DNA from: Jiangella muralis
GTDB taxonomy: Bacteria > Actinomycetota > Actinomycetes > Jiangellales > Jiangellaceae
Direction: 5' to 3'
DNA: 64,000 nucleotides
Assembly: GCF_001270745.1 (NCBI RefSeq)
Contig: NZ_KQ434754.1
Location: forward strand, 315,792-379,791
In this document: positions 18,832-31,319 of the stretch, piece after piece
Numbering within the stretch: the first letter of the stretch is position 1
Layout of the letters: each line of letters starts with the position of its first letter
Made by a program: the position numbers and the translations under genes
The notes under the pieces: generated by a model
What the model was told of the DNA's origin: nothing
Databases searched by the model: none
What the model saw: the letters and a program-made list of their open reading frames with translations, nothing else

Positions 18832-19293
18832 CTACCGCGTCTCCAGGTCGAGCAGCGCCTGCTTGCGCTCCAGGCCCCACGCGTATCCGGTCAGCACGCC
18901 GGACGAGCCGACCACGCGGTGGCACGGGACGATGACGGAGATCGGGTTGCGGCCGTTCGCGGCGCCCACCGCCCGCGACGCCGTCGGGCGGCCCAGTTGC
19001 TCGGCGATCTCGCGGTAGCTGCGCGTCTCGCCGTACGGGATCGCCCGCAGCGCCGCCCACACCTGCTGCTGGAACGGCGTGCCGACGGGACTCAGCGGGA
19101 GGTCGAACTCCTCCCGCCGGCCGGCGAAGTACGCGTCCAGCTGCTCGCGCACCGGGGTGAACGGTGCGTCGTCCTCGATCCAGCCGGGCTGGTCGAGCAT
19201 GGCCGGGCGCTCCATGTAGAGGCCGGTCAGCGCGGCGCCGTCGCCGGTGATCCAGAGCGTGCCGAGGGGACTGTCGATGGTGGTCCAGTACAT
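18832..19293 (-). CDS. ogt: Methylated-DNA-protein cysteine methyltransferase
   Basis: A 153-residue suicide repair protein that takes the methyl group from O6-methylguanine. The active site is IVPCHRVV with Cys124, and the DNA-binding helix-turn-helix region includes PYGETRSYREIA and GRNP. It lies 10 nt downstream of the Ada-AlkA gene and so belongs to the same alkylation-repair operon. The C-terminal Ada methyltransferase that is absent from the Ada fusion is supplied by this gene. Confidence 0.95.
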   Translation of the reverse strand: MYWTTIDSPLGTLWITGDGAALTGLYMERPAMLDQPGWIEDDAPFTPVREQLDAYFAGRREEFDLPLSPVGTPFQQQVWAALRAIPYGETRSYREIAEQLGRPTASRAVGAANGRNPISVIVPCHRVVGSSGVLTGYAWGLERKQALLDLETR

Positions 19294-19303
19294 GATCTGC
19301 CTT

Positions 19304-20743
19304 TCAGAGTGTCGACCAGGCGTGCAGCAGCGCGTACGAGCGCCACGGCCGCCAGTTCTCGGCCAGTTCGGCCACCGCCCTTGGGTCGGACGGCAGCCCG
19401 AGCCCGGCCATGGCGTGCTTGACGCCGAGGTCGGTCGGGAGGAACACGTCGGGGTCGGCCAGCGCCCGCATGCGCACGTAGCGAGCGGTCCAGGGCCCGA
19501 TGCCCGGCACGTCGAGCAGCAGCCGCTCGGTCTCGTCGCGGTCGACGCCGGGGTCGAGGCAGAGCGTGCCGTCGGCCAGCCGGCTGGTCAGCTCGTGCAG
19601 CGTGCGCTGGCGGCTGCCCGGCATCGGGAACGTCGCGGGGTCGGCGGAGGCCAGCACGGCCGCCGCCGGGAACGCGTGGGTGACGGTGCCGACCGGCGCG
19701 TCGAGTGGCTTGCCGTGCTCGGCGACCAGCCGGCCGGCGACGGTGCGCGCGGCGGCCACGGACACCTGCTGGCCGAGCACACCGCGGACCGCCAGCTCGT
19801 CGCCGTCGACCGTGCCCGGGACCCGGGTCCCCGGCCGCGCGGCCACCAGCGGGCCGAGCGCGGGATCGGCGCCGAGCAGGTCGTCGACCGCCTGCGGGTC
19901 GGCGTCGAGGTCGAACACCCGGCGGCAGCGGGCCACCGCCGCCGTCAGGTCGCGCGGGTCGGCCAGCCGCAGCGTCGCCTGCACCCAGCCGTCGCGCGGG
20001 GTCAGCTCCGCGACGCCGGTGCCGTGCGGCAGCGTGAGGCTGCGCCGGTACGTGTCGCCGTCGACCTCCTCGATGCCCGGCACCGCACGTAGCGCCAGGA
20101 AGTCCAGCACGCCGCGGAAGTCCGCGGGCCGCCGGTACGCCAGCCGCAGCTCGACCGTGCCCGCCGTCGCCGTCGGCCCTCGTCGCCGGGCCTTGCCGCG
20201 CAACTCGCTCGGCGTCAGCGCGTAGACCTCGCGGATCGTGTCGTTGAACTGGCGGATGCTGGCGAACCCGGCCGCGAACCCGATCTCGGTGACCGGCAGC
20301 TCCGTCGTCTCCAGCAGCGTCCGCGCCGTGTGCGCGCGCTGCGACCGGGCCAGCCGCAGCGGGCCGGCGCCGACCTCCTCGACCAGCGTCCGGTGCACCT
20401 GGCGCTCGCTGTACCCGAGCCGCCCGGCCAGCCCGGCGACGCCGTCGCGGTCGACCAAGCCGTCCGCGATCAGCCGCATCGCCCGGCCGACGACGTCGGC
20501 GCGGACGTTCCACTCCGCCGAGCCCGGCGTCGCGTCCGGACGGCAGCGGCGGCAGGCCCGGAAGCCGGCCGTCTGCGCTTCGGCGGCGGTGCGGTAGAAG
20601 CGCACGTTCTGGCGCTTCGGCGTCATGGCCGGGCAGCTGGGACGGCAGTAGATGCCGGTGGACGTGACGCCGATGTAGAAGACGCCGTCGAACCGGGCAT
20701 CACGGCCCTGAACTGCGCGGTAGCACGCCTCTTCGTCCAACAT
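19304..20743 (-). CDS. Ada N-domain / AraC HTH / AlkA glycosylase fusion
   Basis: A 479-residue fusion. Residues 1-75 form the methylphosphotriester-accepting zinc domain with Cys33, Cys37, Cys64 and Cys67 (E. coli Ada has 38, 42, 69, 72). Residues 85-185 form an AraC-type HTH. The rest is a 3-methyladenine glycosylase, with an AlkA N-domain and an HhH-GPD segment DVPGIGPWTARYVRMRALA followed by the catalytic Asp in LPTDLG. Methylation of the sensor domain should activate transcription, probably of this operon, while the glycosylase removes alkylated bases. Co-operonic with ogt. Confidence 0.95.
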   Translation of the reverse strand: MLDEEACYRAVQGRDARFDGVFYIGVTSTGIYCRPSCPAMTPKRQNVRFYRTAAEAQTAGFRACRRCRPDATPGSAEWNVRADVVGRAMRLIADGLVDRDGVAGLAGRLGYSERQVHRTLVEEVGAGPLRLARSQRAHTARTLLETTELPVTEIGFAAGFASIRQFNDTIREVYALTPSELRGKARRRGPTATAGTVELRLAYRRPADFRGVLDFLALRAVPGIEEVDGDTYRRSLTLPHGTGVAELTPRDGWVQATLRLADPRDLTAAVARCRRVFDLDADPQAVDDLLGADPALGPLVAARPGTRVPGTVDGDELAVRGVLGQQVSVAAARTVAGRLVAEHGKPLDAPVGTVTHAFPAAAVLASADPATFPMPGSRQRTLHELTSRLADGTLCLDPGVDRDETERLLLDVPGIGPWTARYVRMRALADPDVFLPTDLGVKHAMAGLGLPSDPRAVAELAENWRPWRSYALLHAWSTL

Positions 20744-23724: not shown

Positions 23725-23912
23725 CGGTGCCGCCTTGTTCGGTTGTCGTGGCGCCCGGGGTCGCGCCACTCCTTCATGATCGGCCCGAACCGGTCCGATC
23801 CGGGATACTCGTCTCATCTGCTGAACACGGTGAGACGGCCCCGTCGTGCGGCGCCCGGTCGTGACGCGGGAGACTGGGTGCGGCGACCAGCCAGCCGACC
23901 CGAGGAGATCCT

Positions 23913-24533
23913 GTGCGCGACGAGACCATCGGCGCCTTCCTGGACAGCCTGGCCGCCCGGGTGCCGGCCCCCGGCGGCGGCGCCGTCGCGGCTCTGCACG
24001 CGGCCCAGTCGGCGGCGCTGCTCGCCATGGTGGCCCGCTACAGCACCGGCCCGAAGTACGAGCAGCACGCCGCCGTCGTCGAGCGGGTGCTGGTGAAGGC
24101 CGACGCGCTGCGCACCGACGCGCTGGAGCTGGCCGAGGACGACGCCGAGGCGTTCTTCGCGGTCACCGAGACGTACCAGCTGCCGCAGGAGACCGACGAG
24201 CAGAAGGCGGCCCGCTCCGAGGCCATCGCGACGGCGCTCGCGGCGGCCGCGGAGCCACCGGCCGCCGTCATCATCGCGGCGACGCATCTGGTCTCGATGG
24301 CCGAGGAACTGCTGCCGGTCGGCAACCCGAACGTCGTCACGGACGTCGCGGCCGCCGCCGAGGCCGCCCGCGCCGCCGCCACGACGGCCCGGCTGAACGT
24401 CGAGATCAACCTCGCCGGCGTCACGGACCAGGCGGTCCGCGACCGTCTGACGGCCACCGCGGGCGAGGTCGACGACCTCGCGGCCCGGGCCGACCAGCTC
24501 ACCGCCGACGTGCGCCGGCAGGTCGGAGCGTGA
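23913..24533 (+). CDS. Cyclodeaminase/cyclohydrolase-family protein (FchA-like)
   Basis: A 206-residue all-helical protein of the formiminotransferase-cyclodeaminase C-domain family. The signature VPAPGGGAVAALHAAQSAAL is at residues 17-36, and GNPNVVTDVAAAAEAA is in the second half. The family includes FchA, the methenyl-THF cyclohydrolase of methylotrophs. GAGGAG precedes the GTG. The last four bases overlap the FolD-like start (GTGA), implying coupled translation and a joint role in one-carbon folate metabolism. Confidence 0.9.
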   Translation: MRDETIGAFLDSLAARVPAPGGGAVAALHAAQSAALLAMVARYSTGPKYEQHAAVVERVLVKADALRTDALELAEDDAEAFFAVTETYQLPQETDEQKAARSEAIATALAAAAEPPAAVIIAATHLVSMAEELLPVGNPNVVTDVAAAAEAARAAATTARLNVEINLAGVTDQAVRDRLTATAGEVDDLAARADQLTADVRRQVGA

Positions 24534-25357
24534 CGGCGCGGCGCCTGGCCGGGACGGACCTCGCCGCCCGCATCCGTGCGGAGGTCGCCGAGCGGGCCGC
24601 CGCCCGGCGCGACGCGGGCCGCCCGGCCCGGCTGGTCATCGTCACGGCGACGGACGACGAGGCCAGCGCCTGGTACGTCCGCTCCATCGCGTCGGCCGCC
24701 GGCAAGGCGGGCCTCGACTGCGACGTCGCCGACCTCGGCACGGCGGCGACCGCGGACGACATCTCGGCCCGGCTCGCCGGCCTCAGCGCGGACCCGGCCG
24801 TCGACGGCGTCATGCTGCAGACGCCGCTGCCGCCCGGCGTCGTGCTCGCGGACGTGTCCGGCGCCATCGAACCGGCCAAGGACGTCGACGGCGCCAACCC
24901 GGTGTCGCTCGGCCGGCTGGCCGTAGGGCTGCCCGCCTACGCGCCGGCCACCGCTGCCGCCGTCGTCGCGCTGCTGGACGAGTACGCCGTCGGCCTCGCC
25001 GGCGCCCGGGCGGTCGTCGTCGGCCGGTCCGCGGTGGTCGGGAAACCACTGGCGCACCTGCTGCTGGACCGCGACGCGACGGTGACGGTGTGCCACTCTC
25101 GCACTCGCGACCTCGCGGAGGTGACGTCGACGGCGGACGTGCTGGTCGCGGCGGTCGGGCGGACGCACCTCGTCACCCCCGAGCACGTCCGCGACGGCGC
25201 CGTCGTCGTCGACGTCGGCACGAACCCGACGGCGGACGGCGGCCTCGCCGGCGACGTCGACCCCGCGGTCGCCGAAGTGGCGGCCGCCCTCACCCCGGTC
25301 CCCGGCGGCGTCGGCCCGGTGACGACCGCGCTGCTGCTGAAGAATGTTGTTGACTGA
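24530..25357 (+). CDS. FolD-like methylene-THF dehydrogenase lacking the catalytic lysine
   Basis: A 275-residue protein with the FolD signatures LQTPLPPG, PAKDVDGANPVSLG, VVGRSAVVGKPLA for NADP binding, and PVPGGVGPVTTALLLKN. The cyclohydrolase motif YxxxK is altered: Tyr49 is present but the lysine position is Ile53 (WYVRSIAS). It probably keeps dehydrogenase activity but not cyclohydrolase activity. The coupled upstream FchA-like protein could supply the missing step. A second, normal FolD elsewhere in the genome is likely but cannot be seen here. Confidence 0.9.
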   Translation: MTARRLAGTDLAARIRAEVAERAAARRDAGRPARLVIVTATDDEASAWYVRSIASAAGKAGLDCDVADLGTAATADDISARLAGLSADPAVDGVMLQTPLPPGVVLADVSGAIEPAKDVDGANPVSLGRLAVGLPAYAPATAAAVVALLDEYAVGLAGARAVVVGRSAVVGKPLAHLLLDRDATVTVCHSRTRDLAEVTSTADVLVAAVGRTHLVTPEHVRDGAVVVDVGTNPTADGGLAGDVDPAVAEVAAALTPVPGGVGPVTTALLLKNVVD

Positions 25358-25387: not shown

Positions 25388-26311
25388 ATGACCGAAGTAC
25401 AACGCGACCAGGTGGCTGCGGTCCGTCAGTTCAACCGCTTCTACACGCGCGTCATGGGCTTCCTCGACCAGGAGTTGCTGCGGTCGGGGTACTCGCTCAC
25501 CGAGGCGCGCATCGTCTTCGAACTCGGCCGCCGCGACGTCACCGAGGTCGGCGCGCTGCGCGAGACGCTCGACATCGACGCCGCCCAGCTCAGCCGCACG
25601 CTGGCCCGGTTCGAGTCGGCCGGGCTGATCGAGCGCACGCGCTCGGCCGCCGACGGCCGCAAGCTGCTGGCCGCGCTGACCGACGCCGGTCGCGCGGCGC
25701 GCGACGACCTCCAGAGCCGGTCCGACCGGCAGGCCGAGGAGCTGCTCGGCGCGCTGCCGGACCCCGAGCGCCGCCGGCTGGTCGCCGACCTCGACTCCGT
25801 CCGCCGTCTCCTGGGCGAGTCCGAGCGGCCGCACACCGTCGTCGTCCGCGGCCTGCGTCCGGGCGACCTCGGCTGGGTCGTGCAGCGCAACGCCGTCGCC
25901 TACGCGCGGGAGTACGGCTGGGACCGCAGCTACGAGGCGCTCGTGGCGCGCATCGTCGCCGACTTCGGCGAGCACCACGACCCGGCCCGCGAGAGCGCCT
26001 GGGTGGCCGAGCTGGACGGCCGTCCGGTCGGCGCCGTGTTCTGCGTGCGCAAGGACGACACCACGGCTCAGCTGCGGCTGCTGCTGGTCGAGCCGGAGGC
26101 CCGCGGCACCGGCATCGGCACCCGGCTGGTCGCCGAGTGCCTCGAGTTCGCCCGGGCGGCCGGCTACACGTCGATGATGCTGTGGACCAACGACGTGCTG
26201 GTGGCCGCCCGGCGCATCTATCAGAAGGCCGGTTTCGAGCTGGTCGAGGAGAACCGGCACCACAGCTTCGGCCACGATCTGGTCGGCCAGATCTGGCGGC
26301 GCGAGCTCTGA
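25388..26311 (+). CDS. MarR-GNAT fusion protein
   Basis: A 307-residue protein with an N-terminal MarR winged helix (about 1-145, including LDIDAAQLSRTLARFESAGL) and a C-terminal GNAT acetyltransferase (about 148-305, with the acetyl-CoA loop EARGTGIGTRLV). Such fusions sense a small molecule, possibly the acetylation substrate, and control their own gene. The promoter is buried in tandem operators. The next gene is convergent, and the substrate is unknown. Confidence 0.93.
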   Translation: MTEVQRDQVAAVRQFNRFYTRVMGFLDQELLRSGYSLTEARIVFELGRRDVTEVGALRETLDIDAAQLSRTLARFESAGLIERTRSAADGRKLLAALTDAGRAARDDLQSRSDRQAEELLGALPDPERRRLVADLDSVRRLLGESERPHTVVVRGLRPGDLGWVVQRNAVAYAREYGWDRSYEALVARIVADFGEHHDPARESAWVAELDGRPVGAVFCVRKDDTTAQLRLLLVEPEARGTGIGTRLVAECLEFARAAGYTSMMLWTNDVLVAARRIYQKAGFELVEENRHHSFGHDLVGQIWRREL

Positions 26312-27100: not shown

Positions 27101-27859
27101 ATGGACGGTGACGATCGCCGCGTCGGCGAGCTGCTGCGCGAGTGGAGGCAGCGGCGGCGGACGAGTCAGCTCGATCTCGCCATCCAGGCGGACGTCTCGG
27201 CGCGGTACGTGAGCCTGGTCGAGACCGGCAGGTCCAACCCGTCGGCCGACATGGTGCTCCGGCTCGCGTCGGCGCTGGACGTGCCGTTGCGGCACCGCAA
27301 CCGCCTGCTCCTCGCCGCGGGCTTCGCGCCCCGGTACCGCGAGCGCCCGCTCGACGCCCAGGACATGGACGCCGCACGGGAGGCCCTGGTCACCGTGCTG
27401 CGGGCGCACGAGCCGTACCCGGCGCTGGTGGTCGACCGCCGCTGGAACATCGTCATGACCAACGCCGCGGTCGCGCCGTTCCTCGAGGATGTCGACCCAG
27501 AGCTGCTACGACCGCCCAACCTGGTCCGGCTGGCGCTCGACGCACGTGGGTTCGCGGCGCGGATCGCCAACCCGGCCGACGTCCGCGCCGTGTTCCGCGC
27601 CCGTCTGGCGCGGCAGCTGGCCGAGGACGGCGACCCCGAGATCGCCGCCCTCTACGACACCTACCTCGCCGAAGCCGTCGACGAGCCGGCCGGGTCGGAC
27701 GTCACGATCTCGATGACGGTCCGGTACCGGGGCCACGACGTCCGGCTGTTCTCGACGGTGACGACGTTCGGCACGCCGCAGGACATCACCCTGCAGGAGC
27801 TGGCCGTCGAGGCGTACTACCCGGCGGACGCGGAGAGCGCCCGCCTCCTGCGCCGCTAG
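27101..27859 (+). CDS. XRE regulator with MmyB-like ligand domain
   Basis: A 252-residue regulator. The N-terminal HTH (TSQLDLAIQADVSARYVSLV) leads into an MmyB-like PAS-type domain (about 95-250, PALVVDRRWNIVMTNAAV). These proteins commonly control a divergent oxidoreductase or lipid-related gene; here the partner is the SRPBCC gene. The TAG stop lies in a CTAG palindrome that is also the stop of the convergent E2 gene, so the two coding regions overlap by four bases. Confidence 0.92.
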   Translation: MDGDDRRVGELLREWRQRRRTSQLDLAIQADVSARYVSLVETGRSNPSADMVLRLASALDVPLRHRNRLLLAAGFAPRYRERPLDAQDMDAAREALVTVLRAHEPYPALVVDRRWNIVMTNAAVAPFLEDVDPELLRPPNLVRLALDARGFAARIANPADVRAVFRARLARQLAEDGDPEIAALYDTYLAEAVDEPAGSDVTISMTVRYRGHDVRLFSTVTTFGTPQDITLQELAVEAYYPADAESARLLRR

Positions 27860-29151
27860 GCGATCGCCAGCCAGGGGTCTTCGAGCACGGCGGCGAGGTC
27901 GCGGACGAACTCCGCGGCCTGCGCGCCGTCGATGACCCGGTGGTCCGACGACAGCGTCATCGTCATCTTCTGGACGACCGCCAGCTCGCCGTCCTTCACG
28001 CCCGGCTCGGGCCGCACCGCGCCGACCGCCAGGATCGCCGCCTCCGGCGGGTTGATCACGGCGGTGAAGTGGTCGATGCCGTACATGCCGAGGTTGCTGA
28101 CGGTGAACGTGCCGCCGGTCATCTCGTCGAGGCCGAGCTTGCGGTCGCGGGCCTTGCCGGCCAGCGCGCGGGTCTCGGCGGAGATGCTGGTGAGGCTCTT
28201 CGTGTCGGCGTCGCGAATGACCGGCACGACCAGCCCGGTCTCCGTCGCCACCGCGATGCCCACGTGGATGCGCCCGTGCTGGACGATCGCCTCGGGCGTG
28301 AACGACGAGTTCACCACCGGGTGATCGCGCAGCACGACCGCGACGGCCCGCACGATGATGTCGTTGACGCTGACCTTCTTCTTGTCCGCCGCGACCAGCC
28401 GCTCGTTCAGCTGCGCCCGCAGGTCCGACAGCGGCCCGGCGTCGACCGTCTTGGTGACGTAGAAGTGCGGCGACGACTGCATGCTCTCGGTGAGCCGGCG
28501 CGCGATGGTCTTGCGGATCGACGTCAGCGGGATCAGCTCGTCGGTCTCCTCGACGGCCGGGGCGGGAGTCGACGCAGCCGGGGCGGACGGGGCCGCGGCT
28601 GCCACCGTCGCCGTCCCGTTGGCCGCCGCCTTGGCGACGTCGGCCCGGATGATCCGCCCGCCGGGGCCGGAGCCCGCGACCGTCGCGAGGTCGACGCCCA
28701 GGTCGCGGGCGTCGCGCCGGGCCAGCGGCGACGACAGGATGCGCCCCGCCCCCGTTGATCTTGGAGTAACCGCGGCGTCGCCGCCCGATTCGTCCGATTG
28801 ATCCTGCGGTTGCTCCAAGATCAACTCGGGCTCGGGCTCGGGTGACGGTGCCGGCGCGGGCGCGGCGGCGGGCGTGGGCTCGGCCGGCGCCGGAGCGGAC
28901 CCGCCCACCGGCTCACCGGCACCGACGAGCCGCGCGATCGGCGCGCCGATCGGGGCGGTGTCGCCCTCCTTGACCAGGATCTCGCCGAGCACGCCGTCCT
29001 CGTACGCCTCGTGCTCCATGACGGCCTTGTCGGTCTCGATCTCGACCAGGACGTCGCCGGAGTGGACCTCGTCGCCGACCTGCTTGCGCCAGGCGCTGAC
29101 GACCCCCTCCTCCATGGTGTCGGAGAGGCGGGGCATCAGGATGTCAGTCAT
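27856..29151 (-). CDS. 2-oxoacid dehydrogenase E2 (dihydrolipoamide acyltransferase)
   Basis: A 431-residue E2 core protein. It has a lipoyl domain (1-78) with the attachment lysine in EIETDKAVMEHEA, a peripheral-subunit-binding domain (SSPLARRDARDLGVDLATVA), and a catalytic domain with SSDHRVIDGAQ. The Ala/Pro/Glu linker contains an inserted long palindrome (28754-28825). The start at 29151 (MTDILMPRLSDTMEEG) is fixed by the lipoyl fold. Last gene of the E1alpha-E1beta-E2 operon; the E3 subunit must come from elsewhere. Confidence 0.94.
   Translation of the reverse strand: MTDILMPRLSDTMEEGVVSAWRKQVGDEVHSGDVLVEIETDKAVMEHEAYEDGVLGEILVKEGDTAPIGAPIARLVGAGEPVGGSAPAPAEPTPAAAPAPAPSPEPEPELILEQPQDQSDESGGDAAVTPRSTGAGRILSSPLARRDARDLGVDLATVAGSGPGGRIIRADVAKAAANGTATVAAAAPSAPAASTPAPAVEETDELIPLTSIRKTIARRLTESMQSSPHFYVTKTVDAGPLSDLRAQLNERLVAADKKKVSVNDIIVRAVAVVLRDHPVVNSSFTPEAIVQHGRIHVGIAVATETGLVVPVIRDADTKSLTSISAETRALAGKARDRKLGLDEMTGGTFTVSNLGMYGIDHFTAVINPPEAAILAVGAVRPEPGVKDGELAVVQKMTMTLSSDHRVIDGAQAAEFVRDLAAVLEDPWLAIA
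28754..28825. repeat. In-frame palindromic element inside the E2 linker, copy C
   Basis: Arms of 20 bp, GTTGATCTTGGAGTAACCGC and its complement with one mismatch, flank a 32-nt loop. The 72-bp element is exactly 24 codons and reads LILEQPQDQSDESGGDAAVT on the E2 strand. Its base composition differs from the surrounding Ala/Pro linker, which supports insertion of a mobile palindrome. Confidence 0.75.
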
Positions 29152-29161
29152 CAGAGTCTCC

Positions 29162-30169
29162 TCAGTGCGCGCCGACGGACCGGCGGCCGACGGCGTCGAG
29201 GGTCTGGTGGACGACGGTGACGACGTCGTTCGCCGACGGCAGCGCCGCCAGCTCCAACGACTTCGCGTAGGGCAGCGGCACCTCGGCCATCGCCACCCGT
29301 CGCACCGGGGCGTCGAGGTAGTCGAACGCGCCGTCGGAGATCGACGCCGCCACCTCGGCGCCGATGCCATACGTCAGCCAGTCGTCCTCCAGCACTACGG
29401 CGCAGGACGTCTTCTTCACCGACTCGATGATCGTCGGCCGGTCCAGCGGGCGCAGGCTGCGCAGGTCGACGACCTCGGCGGAGATGCCCTCCTCCGACGC
29501 CAGCTTCTCCGCGACCTGCAGCGCGACGTGCGCCATACGGGAGTACGCGACCAGCGTGATGTCGGTGCCCTCGCGGGTCACCGCCGCGCGGCCGATCTCG
29601 GCCGGCTCGTCGCCGTCGGGGACCTCGCCCTTGGTGTTGTAGAGCGCGAGGTTCTCGAGGAACAGCACGGGGTCGTTGTCGCGGATGGACGCGAGCAGCA
29701 GCGCCTTCGCGTCGGCCGGCGACGACGGCGCCACGACCTTGAGGCCGGGCGTGAACGCGTAGAACAGCTCGACGTTCTGCGAGTGCGTGGCCGCGAGCTG
29801 CTGGCCGCCGCCACCGGGCGTGCGGATGACCATCGGCACCGACCGCTGGCCGCCGAACATGCCGTAGATCTTCGCGGCGTGGTTGACGATCTGGTCCAGT
29901 GCGAGCAGCGAGAAGTTGATCGTCATGATCTCGACGACCGGGCGCAGGCCGAGCATTGCCGCGCCCACGGCGGCGCCGGTGAAGCCCTCTTCGGCGATGG
30001 GGGTGTCGCGCACGCGCTTCGGCCCGAACTCGTCGAGCAGGCCGGCGGTGATCTTGTACGACCCCTCGAACCGGCCGATCTCCTCACCCATCAGGAAGAC
30101 GTCCGGGTCGCGGAGCATCTCGGCGCGCAGGGTGTCGTGCAGCGCCTGGCGGTAACTCATGACGGCCAT
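29162..30169 (-). CDS. 2-oxoacid dehydrogenase E1 component, beta subunit
   Basis: A 335-residue transketolase-like subunit that pairs with E1alpha to decarboxylate a 2-oxoacid and acylate the E2 lipoyl group. Conserved segments are FLMGEEIGRFEG, DTPIAEEGFTGAAVGAA and the C-terminal VVDLRSLRPLD. It starts one base after the E1alpha stop and ends 10 nt before E2. Pyruvate is the likeliest substrate; acetoin or branched-chain acids are alternatives. Confidence 0.94.
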   Translation of the reverse strand: MAVMSYRQALHDTLRAEMLRDPDVFLMGEEIGRFEGSYKITAGLLDEFGPKRVRDTPIAEEGFTGAAVGAAMLGLRPVVEIMTINFSLLALDQIVNHAAKIYGMFGGQRSVPMVIRTPGGGGQQLAATHSQNVELFYAFTPGLKVVAPSSPADAKALLLASIRDNDPVLFLENLALYNTKGEVPDGDEPAEIGRAAVTREGTDITLVAYSRMAHVALQVAEKLASEEGISAEVVDLRSLRPLDRPTIIESVKKTSCAVVLEDDWLTYGIGAEVAASISDGAFDYLDAPVRRVAMAEVPLPYAKSLELAALPSANDVVTVVHQTLDAVGRRSVGAH

Positions 30170-30170
30170 G

Positions 30171-31223
30171 TCAGGCTCCTACCGGGAACAGCGGGTCGGC
30201 GGGGAGGCGGCGCGAGTCGTTCGGCACCGGGCTGGCGTAGGTGTGGTCGAACAGCGACGACACCTCGGGGGCCGGGCTCTTGTCGGCGAACTCGACGGCG
30301 GCCTTGACGATGCGGTGGACGTCGGCGTCGACCCCGGCGAGGTCCTCGGCCTTGGCGACGCCATCGGCGACGAGCCGGTCGTGCAGGCCGGCGACCGGGT
30401 CCTGGGCGCGGACCGCCGCGATCTCGTCCTTGCTGCGGTACGCGGCGGGGTCGACGACGGAGTGCCCGCGCAGCCGTCCGCTCACGGTCTCGAGCAGGTA
30501 CGGCTTCTGCTCCTTGCGGGCCCGCTCGACGGCGACCTTCGCGGCGTCGCGGACGGCGATGACGTCGTTGCCGTCGACCCGCGCGGACTCCATGCGATAC
30601 GACGACGCGCGCTTGTACAGCTCGGGCTCGGCCGAGGCCATCTCGACCGTCGTGCCCATGCCGAGGTGGTTGTTGACGACGACGAACACGATCGGGAGGT
30701 CCCAGAGCGTCGCGATGTTCAGCGTCTCGTGGAACGCGCCGATGTTCGTGGTGCCGTCGCCCATCTGGCACATGACGACCTCGTCGCCGTCGCGGTACGA
30801 GACCGCGAGCGCGGCGCCGGCCGCCAGCGGCAGCTGCCCGCCGACGATGCCGTAGCCGCCGAGCTGGCGCACGTCGGTGTCGAACAGGTGCATCGAGCCG
30901 CCCCAGCCCTTGCTGACGCCGTCCTGCCGGCCGTACAGCTCGGCCATGACGCGGCCCGGGTCCATGCCGCGGATCAGCGCGTAGCCGTGGTCGCGGTAGT
31001 TCGTGAAGAGGTAGTCGCGCTCTTCGATCGCCGCCATCAGGCCGACGACGGTGGCCTCTTCACCGAGGTTGAGGTGGCAGTAGCCGCCGATCTTCGCCTC
31101 GGTGTACGCCTGCGCGGTGCGCTCCTCGAACCGGCGCACCAGGAGCATCTGCCGGTAGTAACCGAGCAGCTCCTCGGCGTTCTTCGCCGAGCGCGCCGGA
31201 CGCTTGCGACTGGTGGTCGCCAC
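30171..31223 (-). CDS. 2-oxoacid dehydrogenase E1 component, alpha subunit
   Basis: A thiamine-diphosphate-binding subunit of about 350 residues. The ThDP motif GDGTTNIGAFHETLNIA-N14-NN and the phosphorylation-loop-like RLRGHSVVDP are present, as is YRDHGYALIRG. GTG 31223 (VATTSRKRPARSAK) is preferred because AGGGCGGG lies about 6 nt upstream; a longer frame to 31298 would cross the TetR operator. First gene of the operon. It resembles PdhA of pyruvate dehydrogenase and AcoA of acetoin dehydrogenase. Confidence 0.92.
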   Translation of the reverse strand: MATTSRKRPARSAKNAEELLGYYRQMLLVRRFEERTAQAYTEAKIGGYCHLNLGEEATVVGLMAAIEERDYLFTNYRDHGYALIRGMDPGRVMAELYGRQDGVSKGWGGSMHLFDTDVRQLGGYGIVGGQLPLAAGAALAVSYRDGDEVVMCQMGDGTTNIGAFHETLNIATLWDLPIVFVVVNNHLGMGTTVEMASAEPELYKRASSYRMESARVDGNDVIAVRDAAKVAVERARKEQKPYLLETVSGRLRGHSVVDPAAYRSKDEIAAVRAQDPVAGLHDRLVADGVAKAEDLAGVDADVHRIVKAAVEFADKSPAPEVSSLFDHTYASPVPNDSRRLPADPLFPVGA

Positions 31224-31295
31224 TCTTACCCGCCCTTCGTTGTCACGGGGCGCGTCCCTGGACGCGCAGCGGTGCCCCGGCTGTGGCCGGGCAAA

Positions 31296-31319
31296 CAATG
31301 AAACGTTAGCGTTTCATTG
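31296..31319. promoter_or_regulatory. TetR operator CAATGAAACG-TTAG-CGTTTCATTG
   Basis: Perfect 10-bp arms around a 4-nt centre lie in the divergent region between the E1alpha gene and a TetR gene. The palindrome is AT-richer than its surroundings. It almost certainly binds the adjacent TetR protein and controls both directions. Confidence 0.85.

Follow-up and report, generated by a model that had tools for sequence, protein, structure and literature searches.

A lysine-less FolD and its FchA-like partner as a probable split dehydrogenase/cyclohydrolase in Jiangella muralis and other actinomycetes

Two overlapping genes of Jiangella muralis very probably divide the work of the bifunctional FolD between two proteins, FolD2 being the dehydrogenase and the FchA-like protein the cyclohydrolase. 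The genes lie in the window, which is the whole stretch of 64,000 nucleotides that was analysed (contig NZ_KQ434754.1). FolD, a subject of drug-target studies, is commonly regarded as a single bifunctional enzyme that is often essential. In the proposed mechanism FolD2 would oxidise 5,10-methylene-THF to 5,10-methenyl-THF with NADP+, and FchA would hydrolyse methenyl-THF to 10-formyl-THF. Because isoleucine replaces the lysine, FolD2 is proposed to be inefficient at the hydrolysis of methenyl-THF. Both enzyme activities and the translational coupling of the pair are predictions. A sequence-only reading of the window had suggested such a split; comparison across genomes supported it, with the division of labour as its predicted part.

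The gene pair of the window

The features are collected in Table 1.

Table 1. Features of the gene pair and its surroundings (positions in the window)
Feature	Position	Strand	Description
GAGGAG	23902..23907		ribosome-binding site of the fchA-like gene, read by eye
fchA-like gene	23913..24533	+	206 aa, GTG start, predicted 5,10-methenyl-THF cyclohydrolase
folD2	24530..25357	+	275 aa, predicted NADP-dependent 5,10-methylene-THF dehydrogenase without the cyclohydrolase lysine
GTGA overlap, fchA stop / folD2 start	24530..24533	+	read from the sequence
folD2 start codon GTG	24530..24532
fchA stop codon TGA	24531..24533
Ile53 codon ATC	24686..24688	+	place of the FolD cyclohydrolase lysine, read from the sequence
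MarR-like regulator fused to GNAT acetyltransferase	25388..26311	+	begins 30 bases past the folD2 stop
479-aa protein, then 153-aa protein	18832..20743	-
three successive ORFs	27856..31298	-	by eye 2-oxoacid dehydrogenase E1 alpha, E1 beta and E2-like

FolD2 has Ile53, in the context WYVRSI, in place of the YxxxK lysine of bifunctional FolDs. The same site reads YVAGK in the second FolD of the genome (G000), which is encoded on another contig (C39, L001). According to the available text of PMC3338484 this lysine is the general acid/base of the cyclohydrolase step, and is positioned by a glutamine. The other characteristic elements of FolD2 are kept: Tyr49, Gln97, KDVDG (117-121), GRS..VG.P, CHSRT and PVPGGVGP. 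The GRS and CHS motifs, as in the human NADP enzyme, suggest that FolD2 may use NADP. The sequence-only reading was thus borne out on the isoleucine, on the intact NADP-binding and PVPGGVGP motifs, on the GTGA junction with the upstream gene and on the presence of a normal FolD elsewhere in the organism.

Pfam assigned both FolD domains to FolD2 above the cut-off (PF00763, 85.7 bits; PF02882, 187.8 bits). The NCBIfam FolD cut-off was not reached, the best score among the 25 of 30 rows shown being 279.2 bits vs 411; the other FolD of the genome scored 458.3 bits with the NCBIfam FolD model (cut-off 401). The partner belongs to PF04961 (FTCD_C; 176.5 bits), the family that includes FchA, as had been claimed from the sequence. 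It scored 139 bits with the NCBIfam FchA model NF045657, below the cut-off of 275. The window therefore has the combination that defines the clostridial split, a FolD without the lysine and a stand-alone FTCD_C protein. The pair was present in all 12 genomes examined of the genus.

The predicted structure of FolD2 (pLDDT 94.7) had the bifunctional FolD 4b4u as its top PDB match (TM 0.95). For the partner (pLDDT 94.9) the top match was FchA of Methylobacterium extorquens AM1 (7vg4; TM 0.94, 38% identity), which ranked above the cyclodeaminases 1o5h and 1tt9. The partner thus has the fold of a solved FchA, a fold common to cyclodeaminases.

Several neighbours were recorded alongside the pair. 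Relatives of the MarR/GNAT fusion lie near the pair in at least six fetched loci, as counted with a crude ORF filter. The 479-aa protein is presumably Ada/AlkA-like and the 153-aa protein an Ogt-like alkyltransferase, judged by eye; in relatives the gene for the larger protein is also found close to the pair.

Distribution of lysine-less FolDs and of FchA

The sequence-only reading had proposed to look for the pair and for the Ile/Lys state across genomes. A class-wide search covered 393 genomes, 387 of them with FolD, and the closest relatives were then fetched from the top of the ranking. The 80 fetched loci contained 75 readable FolDs, of which 66 had Ile (54) or Leu (12) at the site and nine had Lys. 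Where placed in the tree, these nine fall on other branches. The tree had 140 rows after thinning; the branch of the window protein comprised 62 of them, all with Ile or Leu. Gln97 was kept in 65 and Tyr49 in 62 of the 66 Ile/Leu FolDs. One lysine-less FolD (L105, genome G163) has STRPL instead of YVRSI and has lost Gln97, as if decaying beside a Lys-FolD.

Lysine-less FolDs were found in 67 genomes including that of the window. A strong PF04961 match was present in 46 and absent from 21, FchA being counted only above 130 bits, a line drawn by us that left out 11 weaker matches. The FolD and the PF04961 gene shared one stretch in 44 of the 46 genomes; in G051 and G122 the two genes are apart, and in G360 they are near each other on opposite strands. 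Seventy loci (L033-L192) had both genes. Eight are opposite-strand (seven named Nocardia and G360), and one (L107) has a distant Lys-FolD. Among the remaining 61 same-strand neighbouring pairs the overlap was exactly 4 bases in 57, a count made with whichever start codon lay closest to the fchA stop, which favours short overlaps, and with some genomes entered twice.

The pair was also seen in other settings. Two MAGs of Eremiobacterota have an Ile-FolD directly after fchA, and records of Embleya and Nonomuraea in the plasmid collection carry the pair. As an exception, a plasmid of Paenarthrobacter sp. YJN-5 (L353, 5899-6780) has, among genes of amine catabolism, an Ile-FolD that carries a bifunctional annotation; no FchA was found in the fetched 12.6 kb around it.

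A PF02882 search of 30 genomes gave a single match in 15 (G038, G051, G075, G122, G154, G181, G249, G259, G283, G299, G315, G330, G338, G354 and G360); completeness is only 81-88% for three of these, and contamination is 6% in one. In all 15 the site is Ile or Leu and PF04961 is present, and neither formyl-THF synthetase (Fhs) nor the formiminotransferase domain FTCD_N (PF07837) was found in any of them. Fhs was found in four of 40 genomes searched. N. sienata and N. grenadensis had one PF00763 match each, with Leu. As controls, 34 FolDs were hand-picked from the upper part of the relatives ranking, from one-FolD genomes without PF04961, and all 34 had Lys. In Nocardia-like and some other genera the pair thus appears, from genome content, to be the sole set for this folate job.

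The 21 lysine-less genomes without FchA represent two genera of one family (f18), and every one of them carries another FolD, with Lys. These extra FolDs have Y(I/V)GGK in one genus (13) and YVRMK in the other (eight), and lie on separate branches of the tree.

A similar association was seen in Clostridia (99 genomes, 94 FolDs listed, 89 read). Lys-FolDs occurred in genomes without PF04961 in 51 of 54 cases, and non-Lys FolDs in genomes with PF04961 in 33 of 34. The three Lys-FolDs accompanied by PF04961 belong to G482, to G494, which has FTCD_N, and to G431, which also has an Ile-FolD. G460, a genome of 1.2 Mb, has Ala at the site and no PF04961; the FolD of G455 is unreadable at the site, and PF04961 is present. 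Three clostridial FolDs (L313, L316, L318) have Gln at the lysine site, a canonical QxPLP and FTCD_C in the genome, possibly a separate loss. Outside these classes we used genomes picked for an FTCD_C gene, of which 30 of 35 yielded 30 FolDs: 19 with Lys, seven with Ile or Leu and four with Ala.

The number of independent events behind this association is probably small. The first, quick tree separated Lys from non-Lys FolDs by one change, and a tree with the motif columns removed gave four. Constraining all non-Lys FolDs as one clade was compatible with the data (p-AU 0.84), so repeated loss of the lysine is not claimed. Co-occurrence with FchA may therefore reflect shared descent, and if the lysine-less FolDs are one old lineage the correlation has few independent events. 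An independent-pairs test had two pairs only, hence no power, and Fisher p-values were left aside because they take no account of relatedness. The simplest view of the sequences is that of an old pair that would have been inherited together.

Alternative roles and pathway context

We considered whether the partner might be a formimino-THF cyclodeaminase, or have another folate role, with spontaneous hydrolysis covering the missing step. The Pfam family is the same as that of FTCD and the NCBIfam FchA cut-off was missed, as this reading would have it. Moreover, E. coli mutants in which no cyclohydrolase activity is detectable are viable, and in the available text of PMC5688156 the authors suggest spontaneous hydrolysis of methenyl-THF. 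Since the step can be spontaneous, loss of the cyclohydrolase need not be lethal, and a genome could conceivably do without an enzyme for it. The cyclodeaminase candidate was nevertheless rejected: FTCD_N was absent from the genome of the window and 36 other genomes of the class (0 of 37), and from two named Nocardia, in a search that found it in Thermotoga maritima as a control. The ranking of 7vg4 before 1o5h and 1tt9 also argues against it. The alternative also agrees poorly with the lack of the partner in the 21 f18 genomes that have an added Lys-FolD, though many other genomes keep both. Taken as a whole, this alternative is unlikely.

The same domain accounts for most of the Lys-FolD genomes with a strong FTCD_C match, which have formiminotransferase: the actinomycetes G040, G044 and G061, and the clostridial G494. 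Outside this Lys-FolD count, FTCD_N is present in G062 and G079, and a two-domain fusion is visible in G062. Exceptions are G389 (strong PF04961, two Lys-FolDs, no FTCD_N), G482 (Lys, PF04961, no FTCD_N) and G016 (Lys, no FTCD_N). In G016 FchA begins at base 51 of the contig, and a FolD2 may therefore lie off the contig end. In the cross-phylum set FTCD_N was present in 19 of 19 Lys-FolD genomes and in eight of 11 lysine-less ones. Formiminotransferase thus does not exclude a lysine-less FolD, both being present in those eight.

FolD2 might instead retain cyclohydrolase activity by means of another residue, FchA merely adding to it. Gln97, Tyr49 and Asp120 are kept in FolD2, and many clostridial non-Lys FolDs are without the Gln too. 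Against this, the site is Ile or Leu, with no acid/base residue, in all 62 rows of the branch, and the K54N variant of E. coli FolD has, in the available text of PMC5688156, no detectable cyclohydrolase activity and ~19% dehydrogenase activity. We regard retained activity as very unlikely. It is more improbable still that FolD2 is a paralogue without catalysis or in decay, or that its substrate is a different one: one relative (G163) does have a degraded motif, but 15 genomes yielded no FolD other than a lysine-less one, Gln97 and the catalytic-domain motifs are kept, and all 12 examined genomes of the genus have the pair.

With the pair read as a split FolD, the neighbouring genes in relatives point to a pathway. 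Next to the pair in Arthrobacter, Geodermatophilus and others is a flavoenzyme resembling dimethylglycine oxidase, in many cases together with PurU. Among 112 loci a cluster with DAO, FAO_M and GCV_T domains (two members tested), of the dimethylglycine-oxidase type by architecture, occurred near the pair in at least 15, a PurU-type cluster (one member tested) in at least 11 and an FdhF/YdeP-type cluster (one member tested) in at least eight, the counts being lower bounds owing to the crude ORF filter. In G226 PurU directly precedes fchA. This suggests a route from dimethylglycine or sarcosine to methylene-THF, then to methenyl-THF (FolD2), 10-formyl-THF (FchA) and formate (PurU). The purU-mabO-folD operon for nicotine degradation on pAO1, which combines a demethylating flavoenzyme, FolD and PurU, is a published analogue of this context; the available part of PMC3891541 mentions no fchA.

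The pair of the window has no flavoenzyme, PurU or Fdh-like neighbours, and none of the 12 genomes of the genus gave a PurU match above the cut-off. The only PurU-model match in G000 was weak (77.7 bits, below the cut-off), covered part 85-258 of the model and is probably PurN. Release of formate by the window pair is therefore disfavoured. Within the genus the pair is a second set next to another FolD; together with the lack of PurU above the cut-off, this means that it probably adds 10-formyl-THF or NADPH.

Relation to known systems

Work by Aluri et al. in 2016 reportedly showed that in Clostridium perfringens FolD is a dehydrogenase only and FchA supplies the cyclohydrolase, in a set that includes Fhs. 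The arrangement described here is like this split, and the clostridial FolDs of FTCD_C genomes are mostly without the lysine. It differs in that Fhs is missing from the actinomycete genomes whose sole FolD is of this kind. The clostridial forms often have Ala and have lost the Gln, whereas the actinomycete forms have Ile or Leu and keep it.

FchA of M. extorquens AM1, the closest solved structure to the partner, works with the dehydrogenase MtdA, not with FolD. Yeast MTD1 is a monofunctional dehydrogenase of the FolD family; it has no cyclohydrolase, is NAD-dependent and eukaryotic, and has no known FchA partner. FolD2 shares the family and the predicted lack of cyclohydrolase, but is paired with FchA. 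Bifunctional FolDs (E. coli 1b0a, M. tuberculosis 2c2x) have the same fold and the same folate and NADP motifs, and differ from FolD2 by the lysine.

A separate FchA in C. perfringens is cited in the available text of PMC7219735. The Wood-Ljungdahl genes of C. autoethanogenum, as given in the accessible part of PMC9040625, include separate FolD, FchA and Fhs, with FolD and FchA on consecutive locus tags. In acetogens these genes serve anaerobic CO2 fixation with Fhs; the actinomycete pair is found in aerobic organisms, with the 4-base overlap and with Fhs in few genomes. The idea of a split is older, the clostridial FolD and FchA having been published. No description of an actinomycete pair of FchA and lysine-less FolD was found in open-licence PMC literature, searched by titles and abstract openings. 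As far as this literature goes, the new features would be the branch in actinomycetes, with its Ile/Leu state and conserved 4-base overlap, and the genera that appear to rely on the pair alone.

We lean towards a wider view, in which the lysine-less FolDs are one old lineage tied to FchA across several phyla, and Nocardia and several further genera of actinomycetes, as aerobic cells lacking Fhs, have entirely given up the bifunctional FolD in favour of the pair. Which genomes need FchA could then be predicted from the FolD lysine, read alongside the presence of formiminotransferase, and lysine-less FolDs would be liable to misannotation as bifunctional. The swap in family f18, where FchA is absent and a Lys-FolD is present instead, offers a direct way to test why an enzyme is split or fused. 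The two designs can be distinguished by a single residue and by whether FchA is present. If whole genera make 10-formyl-THF only by a lysine-less FolD and FchA, their annotation and metabolic models would be wrong in a predictable way.
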